Part shown: positions 7,352 to 20,814 of the stretch, piece after piece
Layout: each line of letters begins with the position of its first letter
Numbering within the stretch: position 1 is the stretch's first letter
NCBI GenBank assembly: GCA_003558625.1
Contig: PWPP01000077.1
Coordinates: 1 to 33,316, forward strand
Reading direction: 5' to 3'
Length of the DNA: 33,316 bases
Source of the DNA: Syntrophomonas sp.
Lineage (GTDB): Bacteria > Bacillota > Syntrophomonadia > Syntrophomonadales > Syntrophomonadaceae
The notes under the pieces: model-generated
Seen by the model: the letters and a program-made list of their open reading frames with translations, nothing else
What the model was told of the DNA's origin: nothing
Databases searched by the model: none
Made by a program: the position numbers and the translations under genes

Positions 7352-7611
7352 CTCAAATACGCTCCTCTCAGCATTATATTTTTGAAATACAGTAATTTTA
7401 ACACAGTTAAACCCTCTACACAAGGGATTAATCGGACTTTGGCCCATAAATGAGATATATATTATTTTGTTAAAGGGGTTTTCAGGCTGATAATGCCTAC
7501 CCGGCCTGATGCCAGCAAAGCAGCAGGATTAATTGACACTAAAGAAGCGCTTAAATTATTCATTGACCCCAGAGCAACTTAATACTAAAATTAAAATAAC
7601 AGAGAACTTTT

Positions 7612-7706
7612 ATACGGGGAGCTGAATGTTTTTCGGCTGAGAGTGGGTTAATTGAAACCCTGACCCTTATACCTGATCTGGATAATGCCAGCGTAGGGAC
7701 CATCAT
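7612..7706 (+). promoter_or_regulatory. TPP riboswitch (THI element)
   Basis: cgGCTGAGAGtgggtt...aaccCTGACCCTtatACCTGATCTGGATAATGCCAGCGTAGGGAcc matches the conserved THI-box core; located upstream of thiamine-type transport genes. Exact ends approximate. Confidence 0.95.
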
Positions 7707-7791
7707 GAAAGAAGGAATTATGCTGCTTGCACCATTTTGGGGAAGTAGTATTTTTTATTGTATATGGTTTAATAATAGAAGGAGGAAAAAA

Positions 7792-8082
7792 ATGGCCGAA
7801 GCAACCTTAAGTATCCAAATCATTCCGGTAGTTCCCGAAGAACAGATTTATCCCCTGGTAGATCAAGCCATTGCCATGATTTCAGCTTCCGGATTCACTT
7901 ACTGGATCGGACCTTCAGAAACCACCATTGAAGGTGATTTAACATCCATGCTGGAACTGGTGCAAAAATTGCTTCGATCCACCTATGGAGCCGGAGCCTC
8001 CAGGATCATTTCTCATATTAAAATTGACTATAAACCTTCTGGAGTAACCATTGATGAAAAAATCCATAAGTATCTTAAATAA
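7792..8082 (+). CDS. Thiamine-binding protein (COG0011 / MTH1187-YkoF family)
   Basis: Start at MAEATLSIQIIPVVPEE after GGAGGAAAAAA; ..AIAMISASGFTYWIGPSETTIEGDLTSMLELVQ... family pattern; under the TPP riboswitch. Confidence 0.85.
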   Translation: MAEATLSIQIIPVVPEEQIYPLVDQAIAMISASGFTYWIGPSETTIEGDLTSMLELVQKLLRSTYGAGASRIISHIKIDYKPSGVTIDEKIHKYLK

Positions 8083-8821
8083 GATCGGTTCCCTGCTGCT
8101 GTTCCTGTTGTTGCTTCTGCTCTGGGAATTGGCAGTCTGGTTCCGCCAGATTCCCGAGTGGCTCTTGCCTGCACCCAGCACCGTAGTCTTAGTCATGGTA
8201 GATATTAAAGCCCTCTTGTTTAAACACAGCCTGACCACGATGGGAGAGGCTTTGCTGGGATTCTTATTGGCCATCCTCCTTGCATTTTCTGTCTCAGCCA
8301 TGCTGGATAACATTCCTGTCATGAATAAAGCTGTATCTCCTCTGCTGATCATTAGTCAGACCATTCCTATTATTGTCATAGCTCCTTTGCTTATTATCTG
8401 GTTTGGTTATGGTTTGATGCCCAAAATTTTAGTGGTAATTCTGGTATGTTTTTTCCCTATAACCATCAATCTCTTACGGGGATTAACATCAGTAGATCCG
8501 GATCAGGTTAACCTTTTTAGATCAATGGGTGCGGGTAAACTATTAATATTCAAAATGGTTAAGTTTCCTACCGCCCTGCCTTCATTATTTGCCGGGTTAA
8601 GAATATCCGCTTCATACAGCATTATGGCCGCTGTTATCGGCGAGTGGTTGGGAGCTAAATCCGGCCTGGGTTATTTTATGATCCTCTCCCAAAAATCCTT
8701 TTTAACCGGTCAGGTTTTTGCTGCTATTGTTTTAATTTCTCTATTAAGCTTAGCCCTGGTGAAATTATTGGACTGGGCAGAAAGGCTCTTAATCCCCTGG
8801 AACCGGGGAGGTGATATATAA
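8054..8821 (+). CDS. thiX: ABC transporter permease, thiamine-precursor (HMP) type
   Basis: Hydrophobic permease of SsuC/TauC/ThiX type: LPAPSTVVLVMVDI, GEALLGFLLAILLA, FPTALPSLFAGLRISASYSIMAAVIGEWLGAKSGLGYFM; overlaps the preceding gene by 29 nt. Confidence 0.9.
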   Translation: MKKSISILNKIGSLLLFLLLLLLWELAVWFRQIPEWLLPAPSTVVLVMVDIKALLFKHSLTTMGEALLGFLLAILLAFSVSAMLDNIPVMNKAVSPLLIISQTIPIIVIAPLLIIWFGYGLMPKILVVILVCFFPITINLLRGLTSVDPDQVNLFRSMGAGKLLIFKMVKFPTALPSLFAGLRISASYSIMAAVIGEWLGAKSGLGYFMILSQKSFLTGQVFAAIVLISLLSLALVKLLDWAERLLIPWNRGGDI

Positions 8822-8986
8822 ATCTGCAAAGACCCGCTGTAAAAAAATGTCTGGTAAAACCAAAAAAAGAGGGGCCTACTCCCTCCTCAAGCTGGTGAAA
8901 AAATGACCGGGCATGTATTTTTATATCACGATACGCAGTAACTATTTATGTGAATGGCTTTAATGCCTAAGATGGGAGGATTCTGC

Positions 8987-9976
8987 ATGAACTTAACCAC
9001 TATAAGAAACATTATTATTTATTTAATCATCCTAAGTTTGGCTGTCTTTGCTGCCGCCTGCGCCCAGCAACCGCAGGCAGATAAAGAAGAAATACAGATA
9101 TTGCTGGATTGGTTCCCCAATACCAATCACAGCGGCTTGTATGCAGCCCGGGAACAGGGTTTTTATCATGATCAGGATTTAGAAGTAGACATTATCCAAG
9201 CCGGTGAAACCGGAGTAGTTCAGTTGGTAGCCACGGGTAACGCGGATTTCGGTATCAGCTACCAGGAAGAAGTTACCATTGCCAGGTCATTGAACATCCC
9301 TGTTATCGCCATCGCCACCATCATTCAGAATAACACCTCCGGTTTCGCTTCGAAAAAAGAAAAAAACATTCTTAGCCCCCAGGATTTTGCTTTTAAAAAC
9401 TATGGTGGATGGGGTTCCCCCTCGGAGACAGCTATCCTTAAAGCTTTAATGGAAAAATACGATGCAGATTTCGAAGAACTCAATATGATTAATATCGGCA
9501 CTGCTGACTTTTTTACCAGTATGGAGCGGGACATTGATTTTGCCTGGATCTATTACGGATGGACCGGAATAGAAGCTGAGCTCCGGGGAATTGATCTAAA
9601 CTTTATTCCCATTAAAGATGAAAACGAAGCGTTAAACTTTTATACCCCGGTAATTATCACCAGCGAAAGCTTTTTAGCCCAAAACGAGGCCACTGTAAAA
9701 AAATTCCTTAAAGCTACTGCCCAGGGGTATGAATATGCCATAGAAAAGCCTGTTGAAACTGCAACTATCATGCATAACTTGTTTCCGGAACTAAACCCGG
9801 ATCTATTATTGGCCAGCCAGAACTATCTGGCAACACAATATCGGGCCGATGCACCCCGTTGGGGAGAAATGTCCTTAGAAAGGTGGAAAAATTATACCGA
9901 ATTTATGAGTGATTATGGATTGTTGCAGCATCCGATGGATCCAGCCCGGGCATTTACCAATGATTACCTGCCCTGA
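8987..9976 (+). CDS. thiY: ABC transporter substrate-binding lipoprotein, ThiY/NMT1-like
   Basis: Lipobox LAVFAAAC; LLDWFPNTNHSGLYAAREQGFYHDQDLEVDI, GETGVVQLVATGNADFGISYQEEV; GGGAGGA upstream of ATG at 8987. Confidence 0.9.
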   Translation: MNLTTIRNIIIYLIILSLAVFAAACAQQPQADKEEIQILLDWFPNTNHSGLYAAREQGFYHDQDLEVDIIQAGETGVVQLVATGNADFGISYQEEVTIARSLNIPVIAIATIIQNNTSGFASKKEKNILSPQDFAFKNYGGWGSPSETAILKALMEKYDADFEELNMINIGTADFFTSMERDIDFAWIYYGWTGIEAELRGIDLNFIPIKDENEALNFYTPVIITSESFLAQNEATVKKFLKATAQGYEYAIEKPVETATIMHNLFPELNPDLLLASQNYLATQYRADAPRWGEMSLERWKNYTEFMSDYGLLQHPMDPARAFTNDYLP

Positions 9977-9990
9977 AAGAAAGATATTAT

Positions 9991-10719
9991 ATGAAAATAC
10001 AGGTATCGAATATAAGTAAAACCCTAGACGACCTACCTACCCTGGACCGGATTTCTTTGACCGTAGAGAGGGGACAGTTTGTGGTAATATTAGGTCCCAG
10101 CGGCTGTGGTAAAAGCACCCTGCTGAATATCATATCCGGTTTATTGGCCCCGGATCAGGGTCGGGTGATTTTAGACGGTGAAGACTGGACCGGACGCACA
10201 GGCAAAATCAGTTATATGCAGCAAAAAGATTTGATTTTACCCTTTAAAAACATTTTGGAAAACCTGATGATACCCTTATTAATCCGGGGCGAAAACAAAA
10301 AAGAAGCCCGAACCAGGGTTTTTCCTTATTTAAATGAGTTCGGTTTAAAGGGATTTCAGGACTATTATCCCTACCAACTATCGGGTGGTATGCGTCAGCG
10401 AGCCGCCTTGCTGCGCACTTATCTGTTTAAACAAGATGCACTGTTATTGGATGAGCCTTTTGCAGCTTTAGATGCGATCAATCGCAGAAAAATGCAACTG
10501 TGGCTGAAAAAATTGTGTCAGACCTATTCCCCTTCGGTACTCTTGGTAACCCATGATATCGAAGAAGCGCTACTATTGGCCGACGATATATTTGTTTTTT
10601 CAGCCCGCCCCGCTGCTGTGAAACTAAAGGTCCACATCCAAGCTCTTATGTCTTTAGAAGAAAGAGAAGCAATAAAAAAAGAAATCCTTTCTATACTGGA
10701 AGTAGAAGCAGATAAATAA
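9991..10719 (+). CDS. thiZ: ABC transporter ATP-binding protein, ThiZ-like
   Basis: Walker A GPSGCGKSTLL, signature LSGGMRQRAALLRT, Walker B ALLLDEPFAALDAINR, H-loop VTHDIEEA. Confidence 0.93.
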   Translation: MKIQVSNISKTLDDLPTLDRISLTVERGQFVVILGPSGCGKSTLLNIISGLLAPDQGRVILDGEDWTGRTGKISYMQQKDLILPFKNILENLMIPLLIRGENKKEARTRVFPYLNEFGLKGFQDYYPYQLSGGMRQRAALLRTYLFKQDALLLDEPFAALDAINRRKMQLWLKKLCQTYSPSVLLVTHDIEEALLLADDIFVFSARPAAVKLKVHIQALMSLEEREAIKKEILSILEVEADK

Positions 10720-11602: not shown

Positions 11603-11648
11603 TAAAAATCTGGTCCACCCCGGATTTTTTATTCGGGGTGGACCAGAT
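11603..11648 (-). terminator. Terminator hairpin between convergent pcm and IMPase-like genes
   Basis: Perfect 15-bp stem ATCTGGTCCACCCCG/CGGGGTGGACCAGAT, 11-nt loop; TTTTT follows on the minus strand. Could act on both strands. Confidence 0.8.
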
Positions 11649-11695
11649 CATAACTCCTTCGCGGCATAAAGTGCCAACAAAACCCTTCCGGTTGG

Positions 11696-12469
11696 CTAGG
11701 ATAAAATCGGTACCGTATTGTTCAAAATCCATTTATGGATCAACCCGTTTGAAGCGGCTATATGTTTTTGATAAAGATAATCATCACTGCCATTCCAGTC
11801 GGTGACTTTGCCCCCGGCCTCTTTCACGATTAAAGTACCGGCTGCATATTCGTTCACTCGTAAATTGGGGTCTAAAAATCCATCCAGTCTACCACAGGCA
11901 ATCCAGCATAAATCAATAGCTACCGAACCATAGCGGCGCAAACCATGAATATGGGGTAGGATTTTATGAAGCAGGGAAAAATAACTCTGCAATAAGTTAT
12001 AATCATAAAAATAATATCCCGTAGTCAGCAAGCAGTCTTTTATTTCCCGGGTGGGAGAAACCCGGATCTTATGGCCGTTTAAAAAAGCACCTTTCCCCTT
12101 CTCTGCAGCGAATATTTCCTGTCGCTGGGGATCATATACAATGCCCGCCACAACCTGCCCTTTCATAACTGCGGCAATGCTCACCGCCCACATGGGAAAA
12201 TTCCGGGCCAGGTTGTTCTTACCATCAGCGGGTTCTATAATCCAGACTACACCCGCTCCAACCCTGCCGGGGTCAACCAGGGCTCCGGAAAAGTCTATAT
12301 GATCTTGGGGATAATGTTCTCTGATCAAGGTACTCACCTGGTCCCGGCACTGGTTAATTTTGGATTGGTGATTTTGTTCCGTTTTTTCCCCCCCCGGGGC
12401 TAAAAACTTTCCCCCCTCCACAGCGGCAGTTATCGCGATTAGGGTGAAGTCTGACAATGTATTGTCCAT
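11696..12469 (-). CDS. Inositol monophosphatase-family paralog with degenerate catalytic motifs (possible pseudoenzyme)
   Basis: Aligns without gaps to the adjacent paralog across the core; IIEPADGKNNLA in place of LIDPLDGTFNF, LRVNEYAAG in place of LRPWDIAAG. Confidence 0.88.
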   Translation of the reverse strand: MDNTLSDFTLIAITAAVEGGKFLAPGGEKTEQNHQSKINQCRDQVSTLIREHYPQDHIDFSGALVDPGRVGAGVVWIIEPADGKNNLARNFPMWAVSIAAVMKGQVVAGIVYDPQRQEIFAAEKGKGAFLNGHKIRVSPTREIKDCLLTTGYYFYDYNLLQSYFSLLHKILPHIHGLRRYGSVAIDLCWIACGRLDGFLDPNLRVNEYAAGTLIVKEAGGKVTDWNGSDDYLYQKHIAASNGLIHKWILNNTVPILS

Positions 12470-12590
12470 AGTAAAACCTCCTCTGCCCCTGGCAACCTCT
12501 TATAGTGGTCCCAGCCCTCGTCCCTGCTTTCAAGGTTTCCTGGGGTTGGATCTTGAGAATAGCTATTGCAATAGATTGCTGTCAGTATTG

Positions 12591-13421
12591 CTATAAAAAC
12601 TCTTTGCCTGTAAAGTAGGTGTCAATTTTTTTTAGCAGCCACTTATGGAGATGTTGGTTGGTAGCTACAATATTACCGCTGGTCAAATAATCCCCGGCAC
12701 CGGCCCAATCAGAAACAATGCCACCTGCTTCTTCGACCATAACAATACCGGCAGCGATATCCCAGGGACGCAGATGTACTTCAAAACATCCATCCAACCT
12801 GCCGGCTGCAACCCAGCATAAATCCAGAGCAGCTGCTCCAATTCTTCTGATATCATTAATCTCCAGCAGCATATGTTCAAATAAATCGATGTGGCTTTTC
12901 AACATATGCGTGTCGGGACCACAGGGGAAAAATACAGCCAGAACGGCTTCCTGAACATCTTCTAAACCAGAAACCCTAAGTCTTTCTCCGTTTAAATAAG
13001 CACCTTTACCCCGTTCGGCTACAAACAGTTCTTCCCGGTTAAAATCGTATACCACGCCTCCCTGGATTTGATCATGGTATTCATAGGCGATACTGACACA
13101 AAAAACAGGGATATGGCGCACAAAATTAAACGTTCCGTCCAGGGGGTCTATGAGCCAGCGGTATGTATCCTGAGCATATACTCCATGGTCTCCCGTTTCC
13201 TCACCCCGCAGGGCATCATCCGGAAAATCACGCCTGATTAAATCTAGTATGGTAGCTTCAATCAGTTGATCCATTTTCGTAACCAGGCTGCGATCCCTTT
13301 TTCTGTGTACGAAGCCGGATTCTTGGCGAATATCATCAATATAACTCCTAAATACTGCCGCAGCTTTTAAAACCGCTTCCACCGCAGTATTAGTCCGGGG
13401 AGATAACCGTTCTTTATCCAT
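12591..13421 (-). CDS. Inositol monophosphatase family protein (SuhB-like), catalytic motifs intact
   Basis: RGEETGDHG, LIDPLDGTFNFV, LRPWDIAAGIVMVEEAGG. Confidence 0.93.
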   Translation of the reverse strand: MDKERLSPRTNTAVEAVLKAAAVFRSYIDDIRQESGFVHRKRDRSLVTKMDQLIEATILDLIRRDFPDDALRGEETGDHGVYAQDTYRWLIDPLDGTFNFVRHIPVFCVSIAYEYHDQIQGGVVYDFNREELFVAERGKGAYLNGERLRVSGLEDVQEAVLAVFFPCGPDTHMLKSHIDLFEHMLLEINDIRRIGAAALDLCWVAAGRLDGCFEVHLRPWDIAAGIVMVEEAGGIVSDWAGAGDYLTSGNIVATNQHLHKWLLKKIDTYFTGKEFL

Positions 13422-13836
13422 AATAACAACCTGGTTTCAACTGTCCTTACCCTAATAATCACGGGGATCAACCAGAAGTTCACCAAAAAACCTGGGATCC
13501 TGAAGCAGAAACAAAGAGTTGAACCCGTTGTCCAGACTCTGCGTTTCCACTTTTTTCCGGCCTCTGCTGTGTCACCCCTTATTTAAAACCAGATTCTACA
13601 CCTGCCTTCCCTTTAGAAATACAGTAAATCGATTAGTAATAATAAGCATTTGCGTCAGTAAATATGTTACTGTCTTTGTCCCTCAAAAAAGATAATATAT
13701 CAGTTTAAAGCCTTCATCTCCTTAATCATAAAGGGAGAAAAGCATAAAACGCAATAAGCCATTAAATATTTTCAAAAATTCTTATACAAGACCCATAATT
13801 CATATCCTGCAGGGAGTGGAACATAAAACAACTTTA

Positions 13837-15150
13837 CTAAAGTACCACTTGTAAAATCAATTCTTTTCTGTCCGGGGGTAAAGACCCCATCCGGTATGCA
13901 GACAAAAGCTGTTCTTGGGCCTGTCTGATCAACCCCAGACAATTTCCATGTATAAAAGCAATGGTCTGTCCTTTATATACATAATCTCCCCGTTTTTGCA
14001 CCAACTCCAGACCTGCTCCATGATCAATGGCATCTCCGGCCCGGGCTCTCCCCGCTCCCAATAACATGGATATCAGCCCGACCTGTTTGGCATCTATACT
14101 CTGAATGTACCCTTCCTGATCGGATGTGATTTCCTGCTGAAACCGGGCCCGGGGCAAAGAATAATGCTCATCATTCAGATCGATATGCCCTCCCTGCCAT
14201 TGAATCATTTCCATAAACTTTTTAAGACCCGCTCCTGAATGTAGCAAGTATTGAGCCCGTTTATAGGAGGCTTCCACATTTTCATACTGACCGGCTAACC
14301 ACATCAAGTAGGCAGAGAGGCATAAAGAAAGTTCTACTATATCGGGAGGACCGCCTCCACGTAATGTATCAAGGGCCTCTTTTACTTCCAGGGCATTGCC
14401 TACCATCCTACCCAGAGGCTGGTCCATATCACTGATCAGGGCCGCCACCTTGAGGCCGACGTCCTTGCCAATCTGCACCATGATTTGAGCCAGCTCCAGG
14501 GCCTCTGCTTCTTTTTTCATAAACGCACCACTACCGGTCTTCACATCTAAGACCAATGTTTGGGCTCCACAGGCTATTTTCTTGCTCATAATGCTGGCAG
14601 CAATTAGCGGTATACTGTCTATGGTCGCAGTAACATCTCTTATGGCATACAATCTTTTGTCCGCCGGGACCAGTTTGTCGCTTTGGGATACTATAACCCC
14701 ATTGATGGCCTTCACCTGGGTTAAAATCTCATTTTGTCCCAATTCCACCCGAAAACCGGGTATGGCCTCCAGTTTATCAATGGTTCCCCCGGTATGGCCC
14801 AGACCCCGGCCCGACATCTTAAGCATAGCCAGACCCGATGCTGCCACCAGGGAGATTACAACCAGGCTGATTTTATCCCCAACACCACCGGTACTGTGCT
14901 TGTCAATAACCTTTACGGGCAAATCCTCAATACCTATGACCTCACCTGAATGGGCCATGGCCCAGGTCAGATCCTTTAATTCCCGGGGTGACAGTCCCTG
15001 AAAATAAACCGCCATAGCCCAGGCTGCCGCCTGGCAATCCTCTAATTGCCCGTTGGTCATGCCCTTCACTAAAAACGCTATTTCCTCTGTAGTTAACGCT
15101 TCCTTGTTTCTTGTTTTCAATATTAGGTCTTTAAAATCCAACACCATCAC
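13837..15150 (-). CDS. pdp: Pyrimidine-nucleoside / thymidine phosphorylase
   Basis: DKHSTGGVGDKISL, MSGRGLGHTGGTIDKLEAIPGF, DVKTGSGAFMKK; overlaps the deoB stop. Confidence 0.95.
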   Translation of the reverse strand: MMVLDFKDLILKTRNKEALTTEEIAFLVKGMTNGQLEDCQAAAWAMAVYFQGLSPRELKDLTWAMAHSGEVIGIEDLPVKVIDKHSTGGVGDKISLVVISLVAASGLAMLKMSGRGLGHTGGTIDKLEAIPGFRVELGQNEILTQVKAINGVIVSQSDKLVPADKRLYAIRDVTATIDSIPLIAASIMSKKIACGAQTLVLDVKTGSGAFMKKEAEALELAQIMVQIGKDVGLKVAALISDMDQPLGRMVGNALEVKEALDTLRGGGPPDIVELSLCLSAYLMWLAGQYENVEASYKRAQYLLHSGAGLKKFMEMIQWQGGHIDLNDEHYSLPRARFQQEITSDQEGYIQSIDAKQVGLISMLLGAGRARAGDAIDHGAGLELVQKRGDYVYKGQTIAFIHGNCLGLIRQAQEQLLSAYRMGSLPPDRKELILQVVL

Positions 15151-16319
15151 CTCAGCTGCTTATAAAAACTAATACCGGCAAGATCCGATATTTCCACTCC
15201 AAGATGTTCAGCCATGGTTTGACCCAGATCGGCAAACGTTTTACGTACACCCAGGTTGATATCAGCTTTAATCCAGGGCCCCCCAATCAGTAAAGGTACA
15301 AATTCCCTGGTATGATCCGTGCTTAAAGTAGTGGGATCACAGCCATGATCCGCAGTAATGGCCAGCAAATCCTCTTGTTTCAGAGATGCCATAATATCCG
15401 GCAGCAGCTGGTCAAACTCTTCCAGTGCGCGGGCATAACCTGCGGGATCATTCCGATGTCCATATAATTGGTCAAAATCCAATAGATTGATAAAAACGAG
15501 GCCCATAAAATCATTTTTTAAGACCTCCAACAAAATTTTGACCCCTTCGCTGTTACTCCTGGCGGAAAAACTCTCACTGAGAGCCCGGGATCCGAATATA
15601 TCTTTTATTTTCCCGATACCCACTACATTATGTCCGGCTGTCTTTACATAATCCAAAATGTTTGGGGGTGACAGCAAAGAAAAATCTTTTCTGTTCGGGG
15701 TGCGGATAAAACTTCCGGGAACTCCACTAAAAGGCCGGGCAATTACCCTTCCCACACCATGTTTTCCCTGCAGTAAATTGCGAGCTGTTTCACAAATGCG
15801 ATACAGTTGCGCTACCGGAATTATCTCCTCATGGGCAGCAACCTGAAAAACACTATCGGCCGAAGTATATACAATAGGAAAACCGGTTTCAAGGTGTTCT
15901 TGGCCCAGTTCCTCAATAATTGCCGTTCCCGAAGCCGCCACATTGCCCAGGCTTTTCGTGCCAATCTCTTGTTCAAATTCCCTGATCAATTCCTGGGGGA
16001 ACCCGGCCGGGTAAACCGGAAAAGGGTGCTCCAGAATCACCCCCATCATTTCCCAATGGCCGGATACGGTGTCTTTTCCCGATGACTGTGGTTTCATTTT
16101 CCCGTAAGCACCCTCGACAGTCATGGAGGAGGATACGCCCGGTATCATCTCTATTTTCCCGAGCCCCAGGCTTTCTAGATGTGGCAGCTGAATCCCCCCC
16201 ACCGCCTGGGCTACATTCTGCAATGTATTGCAACCGCAGTCCCCATATTGGTAGCTGTCCTCCGTTTCACCAATCCCGACACTATCCAGAATCAGTATTA
16301 TGGCTCTCCTGGTATTCAT
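15147..16319 (-). CDS. deoB: Phosphopentomutase
   Basis: RRAIILILDSVGIGE, SGKDTVSGHWEMMG, TADHGCDPTTLSTDHTREFVPLL. Confidence 0.96.
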   Translation of the reverse strand: MNTRRAIILILDSVGIGETEDSYQYGDCGCNTLQNVAQAVGGIQLPHLESLGLGKIEMIPGVSSSMTVEGAYGKMKPQSSGKDTVSGHWEMMGVILEHPFPVYPAGFPQELIREFEQEIGTKSLGNVAASGTAIIEELGQEHLETGFPIVYTSADSVFQVAAHEEIIPVAQLYRICETARNLLQGKHGVGRVIARPFSGVPGSFIRTPNRKDFSLLSPPNILDYVKTAGHNVVGIGKIKDIFGSRALSESFSARSNSEGVKILLEVLKNDFMGLVFINLLDFDQLYGHRNDPAGYARALEEFDQLLPDIMASLKQEDLLAITADHGCDPTTLSTDHTREFVPLLIGGPWIKADINLGVRKTFADLGQTMAEHLGVEISDLAGISFYKQLR

Positions 16320-16344
16320 CTATCATTCCTCCCTGCTTGCTTGG

Positions 16345-17235
16345 TTAAGCCCTGGGATGGCAATCATCGTAGATTTCCCGCAACCGGCTTCTGGTCAGAT
16401 GGGTGTAGATCTGGGTCGTCGAAACATCTGCATGCCCCAGTAATTCTTGCACAATGCGCAAATCAGCCCCGTTTTCCAACAGATGGGTAGCAAAAGAATG
16501 GCGCAAAATATGGGGGCTCAAAACTTTTTTTATATCAGCCCCTTGCCCATATTGGGATAAGATCTTAAAAAAACCCTGACGGCTGAGGGAGGTTCCCCGG
16601 GCATTTAAAAACAGGGTTCTTTCCTGGGGTTTTTTTACCAGAAAATTGCGGCTGCGGGCCAGATATCTTTGCATCCAGTAAATCGAGGTGTGATGCACCG
16701 GTAAAATCCGTTCCTTACTGCCTTTACCCATACAGCGCAAAAACTCTGCAGTGAAATTAATATCCTCCATCTGCAAAGACAGCAGCTCCGAAACCCTCAA
16801 ACCGGTCCCGTACATTAATTCCAGCATGGCCCGGTCTCTTATGCCGATGGGCTTAACCACATCAGGCTGCTTCATCAATGCATCAACTTCCTCAACACTT
16901 AATATATGCGGAAGCTTTCTTTTTATTCTAGGCGTTTCCAGATCAAAAGCAGGATTGTTTTTTATATGGCCTTCCAGCTGCAGATATTTATAAAAGGACT
17001 TAATACTGGATAGGGTGCGGGCCAGGGTAGAATTGTTCAACCCCTGATCCAGCTGCCAGGACAAATAATCTAAAATGACATTTTTATTGATCTGCCCTAA
17101 ATCCTGCATATTCCGCTCTTTTTGGGCAAAATGGATAAACTTGGACAAATCGCGCCGGTATGCCCCCTGGGTATGGACGGAGTACCCTTTTTCGTAGCAC
17201 AAATAATGAATAAATTCAGTGATGTAGGCTTCCAT
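16345..17235 (-). CDS. xerD: Tyrosine recombinase XerD
   Basis: Start at MEAYITEFIHYLCYEKGYSVHT (GGGGAAGG upstream); YGTGLRVSELLSL, LSPHILRHSFATHLLENGADLRIVQELLGHADVSTTQIYTHL; located next to deoB as in other Firmicutes. Confidence 0.95.
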   Translation of the reverse strand: MEAYITEFIHYLCYEKGYSVHTQGAYRRDLSKFIHFAQKERNMQDLGQINKNVILDYLSWQLDQGLNNSTLARTLSSIKSFYKYLQLEGHIKNNPAFDLETPRIKRKLPHILSVEEVDALMKQPDVVKPIGIRDRAMLELMYGTGLRVSELLSLQMEDINFTAEFLRCMGKGSKERILPVHHTSIYWMQRYLARSRNFLVKKPQERTLFLNARGTSLSRQGFFKILSQYGQGADIKKVLSPHILRHSFATHLLENGADLRIVQELLGHADVSTTQIYTHLTRSRLREIYDDCHPRA

Positions 17236-17403
17236 TTTTTCCTTCCCCACTATAGGATTAATGATGCAATAATAAAGACCAATTTGTAATAAATTTAACA
17301 TAACCCTTATAAAACAAATGAAAAAATCCTAAATCCATGACCTTTCCTCCCATTGGGAAATCAAGATCCCAGAGTATATATTTTTAAAATCAATGGCATA
17401 AAA

Positions 17404-19007: not shown

Positions 19008-19682
19008 CTATTTATTATACAATAATAAACCGGCAATATACTGCGCCCCCAGCACATCTTCCAGGGAATTGCGGCTGGCAGCAATCACAGCAATGCCGGT
19101 ATGATGAGCCCCGAAGGATGCCCGGGCCCTTTTACAGGCACTAAGTGCCGGTTGTAGCCCTTTTTGGGTCAAGGTTCGTGCAACCGTTCCGGTAATAACC
19201 CTGCCCCCGGCCTGAAAAGCGGCATCATAGGCCACCCCGCCGGTTTCTGTTACCGCCAGCACCACCCGGTCTTTCATCTCTGTTAATTTAGGGGTTTCCG
19301 CTCCCAGGTTGGGGACAATGGCTTCGATAAGACCTTTTTCCGACTCAATGCCTCTAATGACTTTTTGACAGCGTGTGATTCGTTCTTTTTCAGTGCCTGC
19401 ACGGGGTTCTGCTACCAGGACAATTCCTCTCCTACCCTCCCGCGCTTCCCGCGCTGCCAATCGTCCCATCCCTTCAGGATCAACTTTTACCGGTGCCCGG
19501 TTAACATCCGGGCTGGCTCCCAATATCATGAAGGCTCCTGCATCCAGAGCACTTTCCAGAGTCGTGGACATATCAATCACATCCACGATCATGACCAGCA
19601 GCCCTTCCCGGGCTGCGTTGTAGGCCCCGCTGGCATCGGTACTAAAAATAATCCTTTCGGACTTTACCATAATTTCCACCAC
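19008..19682 (-). CDS. ComB (2-phosphosulfolactate phosphatase)-like fold protein, divergent
   Basis: VMIVDVIDMSTTLESALDAGA resembles ComB VxxIDVLRATTTIxxAL..GA; VTETGGVAYDAAFQAGGRVITGTVART and NSLEDVLGAQYI resemble ComB positions. ATG at 19670 with upstream GGAGG may be the true start. Confidence 0.55.
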   Translation of the reverse strand: MVEIMVKSERIIFSTDASGAYNAAREGLLVMIVDVIDMSTTLESALDAGAFMILGASPDVNRAPVKVDPEGMGRLAAREAREGRRGIVLVAEPRAGTEKERITRCQKVIRGIESEKGLIEAIVPNLGAETPKLTEMKDRVVLAVTETGGVAYDAAFQAGGRVITGTVARTLTQKGLQPALSACKRARASFGAHHTGIAVIAASRNSLEDVLGAQYIAGLLLYNK

Positions 19683-20814
19683 CTCCGGGTATAATGGGCA
19701 AACGGCCCTGCCTCATCCCATGAATCATTTTTGCTATGTAATCCCCTGCTGCTTCACGAATAACTTCGATGGGTGCATGTTCTACCAAATTGATTTCATG
19801 ATCAAAAAACCTGTGCAAGCGGACCAGGGTTTTAGGACCAATTCCCGGTAGATTCTGCAAAGGCACCCGGTAAAAATAACCGGGTTGCCTCCGGGGTTGT
19901 ACCCTTTCATCATGATCCCTGATTGCTACAATGCGGTCATATACCCCGGGCATCATATCCGGAGCATGACAACGGGGGCAACGAAAAACCGGGGGTGGAT
20001 CCCCGGCAATGGACTGGCATATAGAGCAAAAACTGCGATGATATTTACCCAGGCGGGGATCCATACCGAAATTGGCCAGGATCCTTCTTCCTTTTTGGTT
20101 TTCCAGCCCGTATTTTAGTTCCTGGAAAGTCTTGTCCCCGAGTGCCAACAAGTTATATTCTCTTCCCACATTGGGAGAAGAGTGGGCATCAGAATTGGAT
20201 AAAAAAGAGAAAAACCGTGTTTCATCAATCATTTCTGCCATGGTTGTATCGGCGCTTAAACCCAATTCCAAGGTATTGATTTTTCTAATGTCAGCACCTA
20301 GTTTAGCTTCCAGCCGCGGGGTCCACTTGCCATAAACACCTTTATGAGGGGTAAAAGCATGGGCAGGACAAAAAAAACCTTTCAGCTCCAGGGTCAGGTG
20401 CAAAAGTTCCCCAAAACCCAGGCTGGTTTTCTGGGTAGATAATTGATTATTTGTCATATGGGAGGCCATGGCTTCTTGCCAGTTTTCGATGCTCTCCATG
20501 TGGGGCAGGTAGCTGATCACATGGACCCCTTCCCTGCTTTCAACTTCGCAGGCAGGAACAAACAGAACACCGTTGGAGGCCAAAAATCCTCCATCAGTTA
20601 AAGGCCTGAGCGCTCCCCGGTCTATAAAATCCCGTATCTCCCGGACCACCGGGATACAGCCTGCATCTACCACCCCTACAATATCCAAGCCCTTTCGGGG
20701 GGCATCTTCAAAAATAATCCGTTCAAGAGTTAGAGATCGGGAAGCGGTAATCTTCACCCACTTCCCCCCGGCCTGACCGATATGAATATGTAAGTCCGCA
20801 TAATAATTATTCAA
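19642..20814 (-). CDS. PHP-domain protein of the endonuclease Q family (YqxK/TIGR00375-like)
   Basis: YADLHIHIG, GVVDAGC, HAFTPHKGVYG, SNSDAHSSPNVGREYN, zinc-ribbon CSIC..CPRC, and YRVPLQNLPGIGPKTLVRL helix-hairpin-helix. Confidence 0.88.
   Translation of the reverse strand: MNNYYADLHIHIGQAGGKWVKITASRSLTLERIIFEDAPRKGLDIVGVVDAGCIPVVREIRDFIDRGALRPLTDGGFLASNGVLFVPACEVESREGVHVISYLPHMESIENWQEAMASHMTNNQLSTQKTSLGFGELLHLTLELKGFFCPAHAFTPHKGVYGKWTPRLEAKLGADIRKINTLELGLSADTTMAEMIDETRFFSFLSNSDAHSSPNVGREYNLLALGDKTFQELKYGLENQKGRRILANFGMDPRLGKYHRSFCSICQSIAGDPPPVFRCPRCHAPDMMPGVYDRIVAIRDHDERVQPRRQPGYFYRVPLQNLPGIGPKTLVRLHRFFDHEINLVEHAPIEVIREAAGDYIAKMIHGMRQGRLPIIPGGGGNYGKVRKDYF

Follow-up and report, generated by a model that had tools for sequence, protein, structure and literature searches.

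The window, a 33,316-nt stretch of the draft genome of an uncultured Syntrophomonas sp. (GCA_003558625.1, contig PWPP01000077.1), encodes two adjacent inositol monophosphatase (IMPase) paralogs. The downstream paralog, P1, is probably a pseudophosphatase that has been kept for its fold or its dimer interface, and it may work together with the neighboring P2. This reading is based on the loss of the active site relative to intact relatives, the uniqueness of that loss, a compatible fold, and an intact gene. Counting against it, the carboxylates of metal site II survive as Glu/Asp/Glu, the IMPase family is dispensable in the order, and AU tests reject none of the alternative placements of P1 within its clade.

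P1 is located at positions 11696 to 12469 on the minus strand and has 257 codons without internal stops (257 amino acids). In a profile search, it matches the Pfam Inositol_P family (PF00459) with 142 bits (cut-off of 27) over positions 49 to 264 of 271, a significant match across most of the domain that makes it a member of this superfamily by descent. An AGGAGG ribosome-binding site (12477..12482, minus strand) lies 7 nt 5' of the ATG. A hairpin resembling an intrinsic terminator, with a 16-bp stem followed by UUUUU, is found 47 nt past the stop codon (11607..11649, minus strand) and has a folding energy of -41.9 kcal/mol (z -7.0). The codon usage of P1 is ordinary, a property that is slow to decay. 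P1 is an intact gene in a likely transcription unit, and it is presumably made as a folded protein. Upstream of P1, in the same direction and after a gap of 121 bp, lies P2 (12591..13421, minus strand; 276 amino acids), a catalytically intact paralog that scores 208 bits against PF00459 and carries all ligands. Contig C86 of the genome carries a third, likewise intact, IMPase gene. This homolog (G000:C86:4453-5091, L002) has an open frame of 524 residues, about 250 above the usual length, possibly reflecting a fusion or a long open extension.

To describe the active site, P1 was aligned with about 118 IMPase homologs, and residues were numbered after IMPA1. Positions D47, E70, D90, D93, T95, and D220 are occupied in P1 by N, S, E, D, K, and E, respectively, meaning that five of the six metal and water residues are changed. 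None of the six is changed in 113 of the 119 sequences and a single one in five sequences, leaving P1 as the sole sequence with a lost site and the only one with multiple losses, a deviation much larger than chance would produce. All altered codons are read on the minus strand. N39 (AAC; 12353..12355) stands at the position of D47, which takes part in water activation, and S61-G62 (TCC GGA; 12284..12289) at those of E70 and E71, the former being a ligand of Mg-I and Mg-III (PMC4954947). The motif D90-P-x-D93-G-T95 is replaced by E79-P-A-D82-G-K84 (12218..12235), and W219-D220 by N206-E207 (AAC GAA; 11849..11854). In addition, D200 (GAC; 11870..11872) is found in place of E213, a Glu that is nearly invariant in the homologs. 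When P1 is excluded, 13 columns of a 66-homolog alignment are invariant, and P1 changes seven of these. A homolog from Natrialba aegyptia (L103:2024-2809) has an Arg at the T95 position, with all other ligands intact.

The first-pass annotation of this region had proposed the changes at E70, E71, D90, T95, and D220, the retention of D93, and an intact adjacent paralog. All of these recur in the alignment of some 120 homologs and in P2, and the bounds given for the open reading frame are exact. The annotation left the strand unstated and missed the changes at D47, W219, and E213, as well as a shortening of the mobile loop, described below. It had also stated that the metal-binding residues were lost. 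This holds for sites I and III, as it does for water activation, but is too strongly worded for site II. In IMPases, D90 contributes to two sites, binding Mg-I together with E70 and the carbonyl of Ile92 and Mg-II together with D93 and D220, and E70 additionally holds Mg-III (PMC4954947). Because Mg-I and Mg-III need E70, P1 would lack sites I and III along with the water-activating pair (D47 and T95, now N39 and K84), while the metal-II set is kept as three carboxylates, E79, D82, and E207. The metal ligands of an active Mg2+-dependent IMPase (E70, D90, D93, D220) are thus S, E, D, and E in P1. Judging from these residues, a residual single-metal site is possible and three-metal hydrolysis is not expected. 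Single-residue losses suffice to suppress activity in E. coli SuhB (D93N) and in the human enzyme (D90N) (PMC2834668), and it is very probable that P1 would be unable to hydrolyze phosphomonoesters by the mechanism of the family.

The same tandem pair, in the same order and direction, is present in another Syntrophomonadaceae metagenome-assembled genome (G030, JARYMO010000034.1), where both copies are intact, and a further relative (G026) has one intact IMPase gene. Since both G030 copies are intact, the site loss in P1 is derived. No orthologs with the losses of P1 were found in the 63 genomes of the order (a class-level search covers the same 63) or in 399 genomes of the phylum, nor among species-genome contigs (best 80 of 207 relatives) or viral contigs. 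As far as sampled, the loss is therefore confined to this lineage. Members of the Inositol_P family occur in 18 of the 63 genomes of the order and are absent from 45; all 14 control genomes carry one.

The window pair, the G030 pair, and the G026 gene group together with strong support in a single clade (100/97 and 98/96). Inside this clade, AU tests reject none of the alternative branching orders (AU p of 0.175 to 0.48), and diagnostic residues, split 6 to 3, do not settle whether P1 belongs with the downstream-type copies. Gene order and similarity (42 to 53% to the downstream-type copies versus 38 to 41%) point to P1 as the putative downstream copy of an ancestral pair. The P1 branch has a length of 1.2 to 1.5, compared to 0.33 to 0.62 for the other clade members, making it two to four times longer.

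AlphaFold2 (AF2) models of P1 and P2 reach a pLDDT of 93.3 and 94.1, respectively, and the best solved matches of P1 in Foldseek are SuhB structures (TM of 0.85 to 0.91). The P1 model was built with a family alignment, which partly imposes the fold; it shows that P1 is compatible with the IMPase fold without proving this independently. Sequence change is unevenly distributed along the protein. Residues 27 to 75 (12245..12391, minus strand) have only 14 to 17% identity to the two nearest relatives, which are 47% identical to each other in this stretch. It includes the mobile loop between alpha1 and alpha2, which is 10 to 12 residues shorter in P1, in frame; the loop strands of the P2 model (E38-40 and E46-48) are missing from the P1 model. 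K29 of P1 aligns to the mobile-loop residue K36 in the large alignment only. When all three frames of residues 20 to 75 were read, no hidden frameshift was found. By comparison, residues 141 to 251 are 55 to 60% identical to the two nearest relatives (66 to 75% between those two), and residues 141 to 195 are 56 to 60% identical. In Mycobacterium tuberculosis SuhB, the dimer interface is made up of helix alpha6, beta10, alpha7, and loops (PMC2080633). Assigned by the order of secondary-structure elements, the matching elements of P1 would span residues 151 to 201 (11867..12019, minus strand), within its well-kept part.

The main rival to selective retention is a recent loss of function. Here, P2 would have made P1 redundant, lifting selection on catalysis, and P1, now serving no role, would be caught at an early stage at which its frame is still unbroken. 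We regard this as rather unlikely, yet it has several points in its favor. The IMPase family is dispensable in the order, being absent from the majority of its genomes, so that losing a spare copy is cheap; P2 and the third intact IMPase are present in the genome; the P1 branch is long; and the site and the mobile loop are worst affected, as expected where catalysis is unneeded. However, the losses are concentrated in the site. Among 31 columns that are at least 90% conserved, P1 loses eight of the nine in the active site but a single one of the other 22 (Fisher p about 1e-5); under a stricter definition of the site, it loses six of seven inside and three of 24 outside (p about 7e-4). The retention of 21 of the 22 strongly conserved residues beyond the site caps unselected drift at some 0.23 changes per site (0.35 under the stricter definition), which is below the excess length of the P1 branch. 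At a neutral drift of 0.5 to 1 amino acid change per site, about 7 to 15 stop codons would be expected, and P1 has none; nor does it contain a frameshift, every indel being in frame. Its ribosome-binding site and terminator-like hairpin are also kept.

Together with the confident IMPase fold and the intact pair in the relative, this site-specific loss supports well the earlier proposal of a pseudoenzyme with a preserved fold. P1 has lost essential catalytic residues and, given its intact relatives, had an active ancestor, as is characteristic of pseudoenzymes. The further proposal that P1 has been selected rather than decaying is favored by the limit on drift but is unproven, given that the loss of function may be recent. 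From the sequence comparisons, selection for fold rather than catalysis during most of the P1 branch is favored, and we have some confidence that P1 was kept for a non-catalytic role.

Alternatively, P1 could have altered chemistry, coordinating a single metal with Glu79, Asp82, and Glu207 at site II, or using Lys84 as a substitute for a metal, with the rebuilt pocket catalyzing or sensing. The site-II positions are all carboxylates (D90E, D93, D220E), and the phosphate-side Gly is kept as G83 (sites according to PMC4954947). Moreover, Lys at the T95 position would bring positive charge close to where the phosphate binds. Nevertheless, this option seems improbable: Glu70, Asp47, and Thr95, on which metals I and III as well as water activation depend, are gone, the mobile loop is shortened, and the Asp/Glu exchanges are conservative, take one base change, and may be drift.

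A role in rRNA antitermination, as a SuhB-like transcription factor, is more doubtful still. It would fit the SuhB structures being the nearest solved structures to P1, and E. coli SuhB offers a precedent: its phosphatase activity is not needed for its antitermination role, and suhB mutants have a growth defect that IMPase-dead mutants lack (PMC4807359). However, SuhB acts via the AR2 domain of NusA and rrn nut RNA (PMC6614801). The AR2 domain is not universal in NusA, and a core Nus role is unlikely in an order in which the majority of genomes are without any IMPase. The intact relatives of P1 also retain their catalytic site.

Finally, a draft assembly of 143 contigs (1.37 Mb, 73.6% complete) might lead one to suspect an error in sequencing or assembly, or a contig that was binned wrongly. 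These explanations can practically be dismissed, as the frame is intact, E70S (TCC) and W219N (AAC) need at least three nucleotide changes each, which excludes a single-base sequencing error, and the contig is correctly placed, given that the best matches of the neighboring deoB are in the same family (60 to 63%) and that the xerD-deoB-pdp order is common to the window and its relatives. The first-pass annotation had held that restored ligands in orthologs would indicate such an error; the ligands are indeed intact in the nearest relatives, which reflects lineage-specific loss instead.

In the window, the IMPase pair occupies the place after xerD-deoB-pdp (11696-17301, minus strand) where relatives carry other genes. 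In G003, G020, and G017, xerD-deoB-pdp is followed by a dacF-like gene and then by genes resembling spoIIAB and sigF (identities assigned by eye, using the translations). No conserved neighbors of the IMPase genes are common to the window, G026, and G030. Elsewhere in the window, a TPP riboswitch (Rfam, 65 bits) precedes genes for an ABC permease, an NMT1/THI5-like lipoprotein, and an ATPase (7605-10719, plus strand), which is an ordinary thiamine-precursor uptake operon. Two adjoining ORFs of 224 and 390 amino acids (19008-20814, minus strand) have no Pfam match.

Returning to P1 as a pseudophosphatase, we envisage an ancestral tandem arrangement of two active IMPases, with P1 being derived from the downstream one. 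Its three-metal center would then have been lost in this lineage, as Glu70 (metals I and III) and the water-activating Asp47 and Thr95 disappeared, and its mobile loop would have been shortened, while the fold and the dimer-forming half were kept. As for its function, we tentatively propose a structural or regulatory partner of P2, via the conserved dimer interface, or a binder of a phosphorylated ligand; we think that partnership with P2 is the likeliest of the candidate roles, followed by ligand binding. More specific candidates, namely, a P1-P2 heterodimer that regulates P2 or a metabolite sensor that uses the remodeled single-metal (Glu/Asp/Glu) pocket, are speculative. If P1 does bind P2, it would be a readily testable regulatory subunit.

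To our knowledge, pseudoenzymes have been studied in depth among kinases, but there is little documentation of them for the family of lithium-sensitive phosphatases. A literature search for inositol monophosphatase and pseudoenzyme retrieved no pseudoenzyme of the IMPase family. P1, known so far from one draft genome, is a probable pseudoenzyme paralog in a family where such cases appear to be rare. A score of 142 bits against a Pfam cut-off of 27 cautions against calling every Inositol_P match a phosphatase. In addition, a tandem pair with one copy devoid of its site, alongside a relative in which both are intact, offers a before-and-after case for the origin of non-catalytic roles.

The closest known counterpart is the G030 pair, which matches the window pair in gene content, order, and direction, with an identity of 42% for P1 and 55% for P2. 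In contrast to P1, both of its copies keep all metal and water residues. SuhB and IMPA1 (E. coli, P. aeruginosa, human) share the Inositol_P domain and fold of P1 (TM of about 0.81 to 0.91) at 25 to 33% identity, whereas in P1, E70, D47, T95, and W219 are missing, D90 and D220 are replaced by Glu, and the mobile loop is shortened. With pseudoenzymes in general, P1 shares gene duplication, loss of the catalytic set, and a retained fold, its own non-catalytic role being a predicted one.
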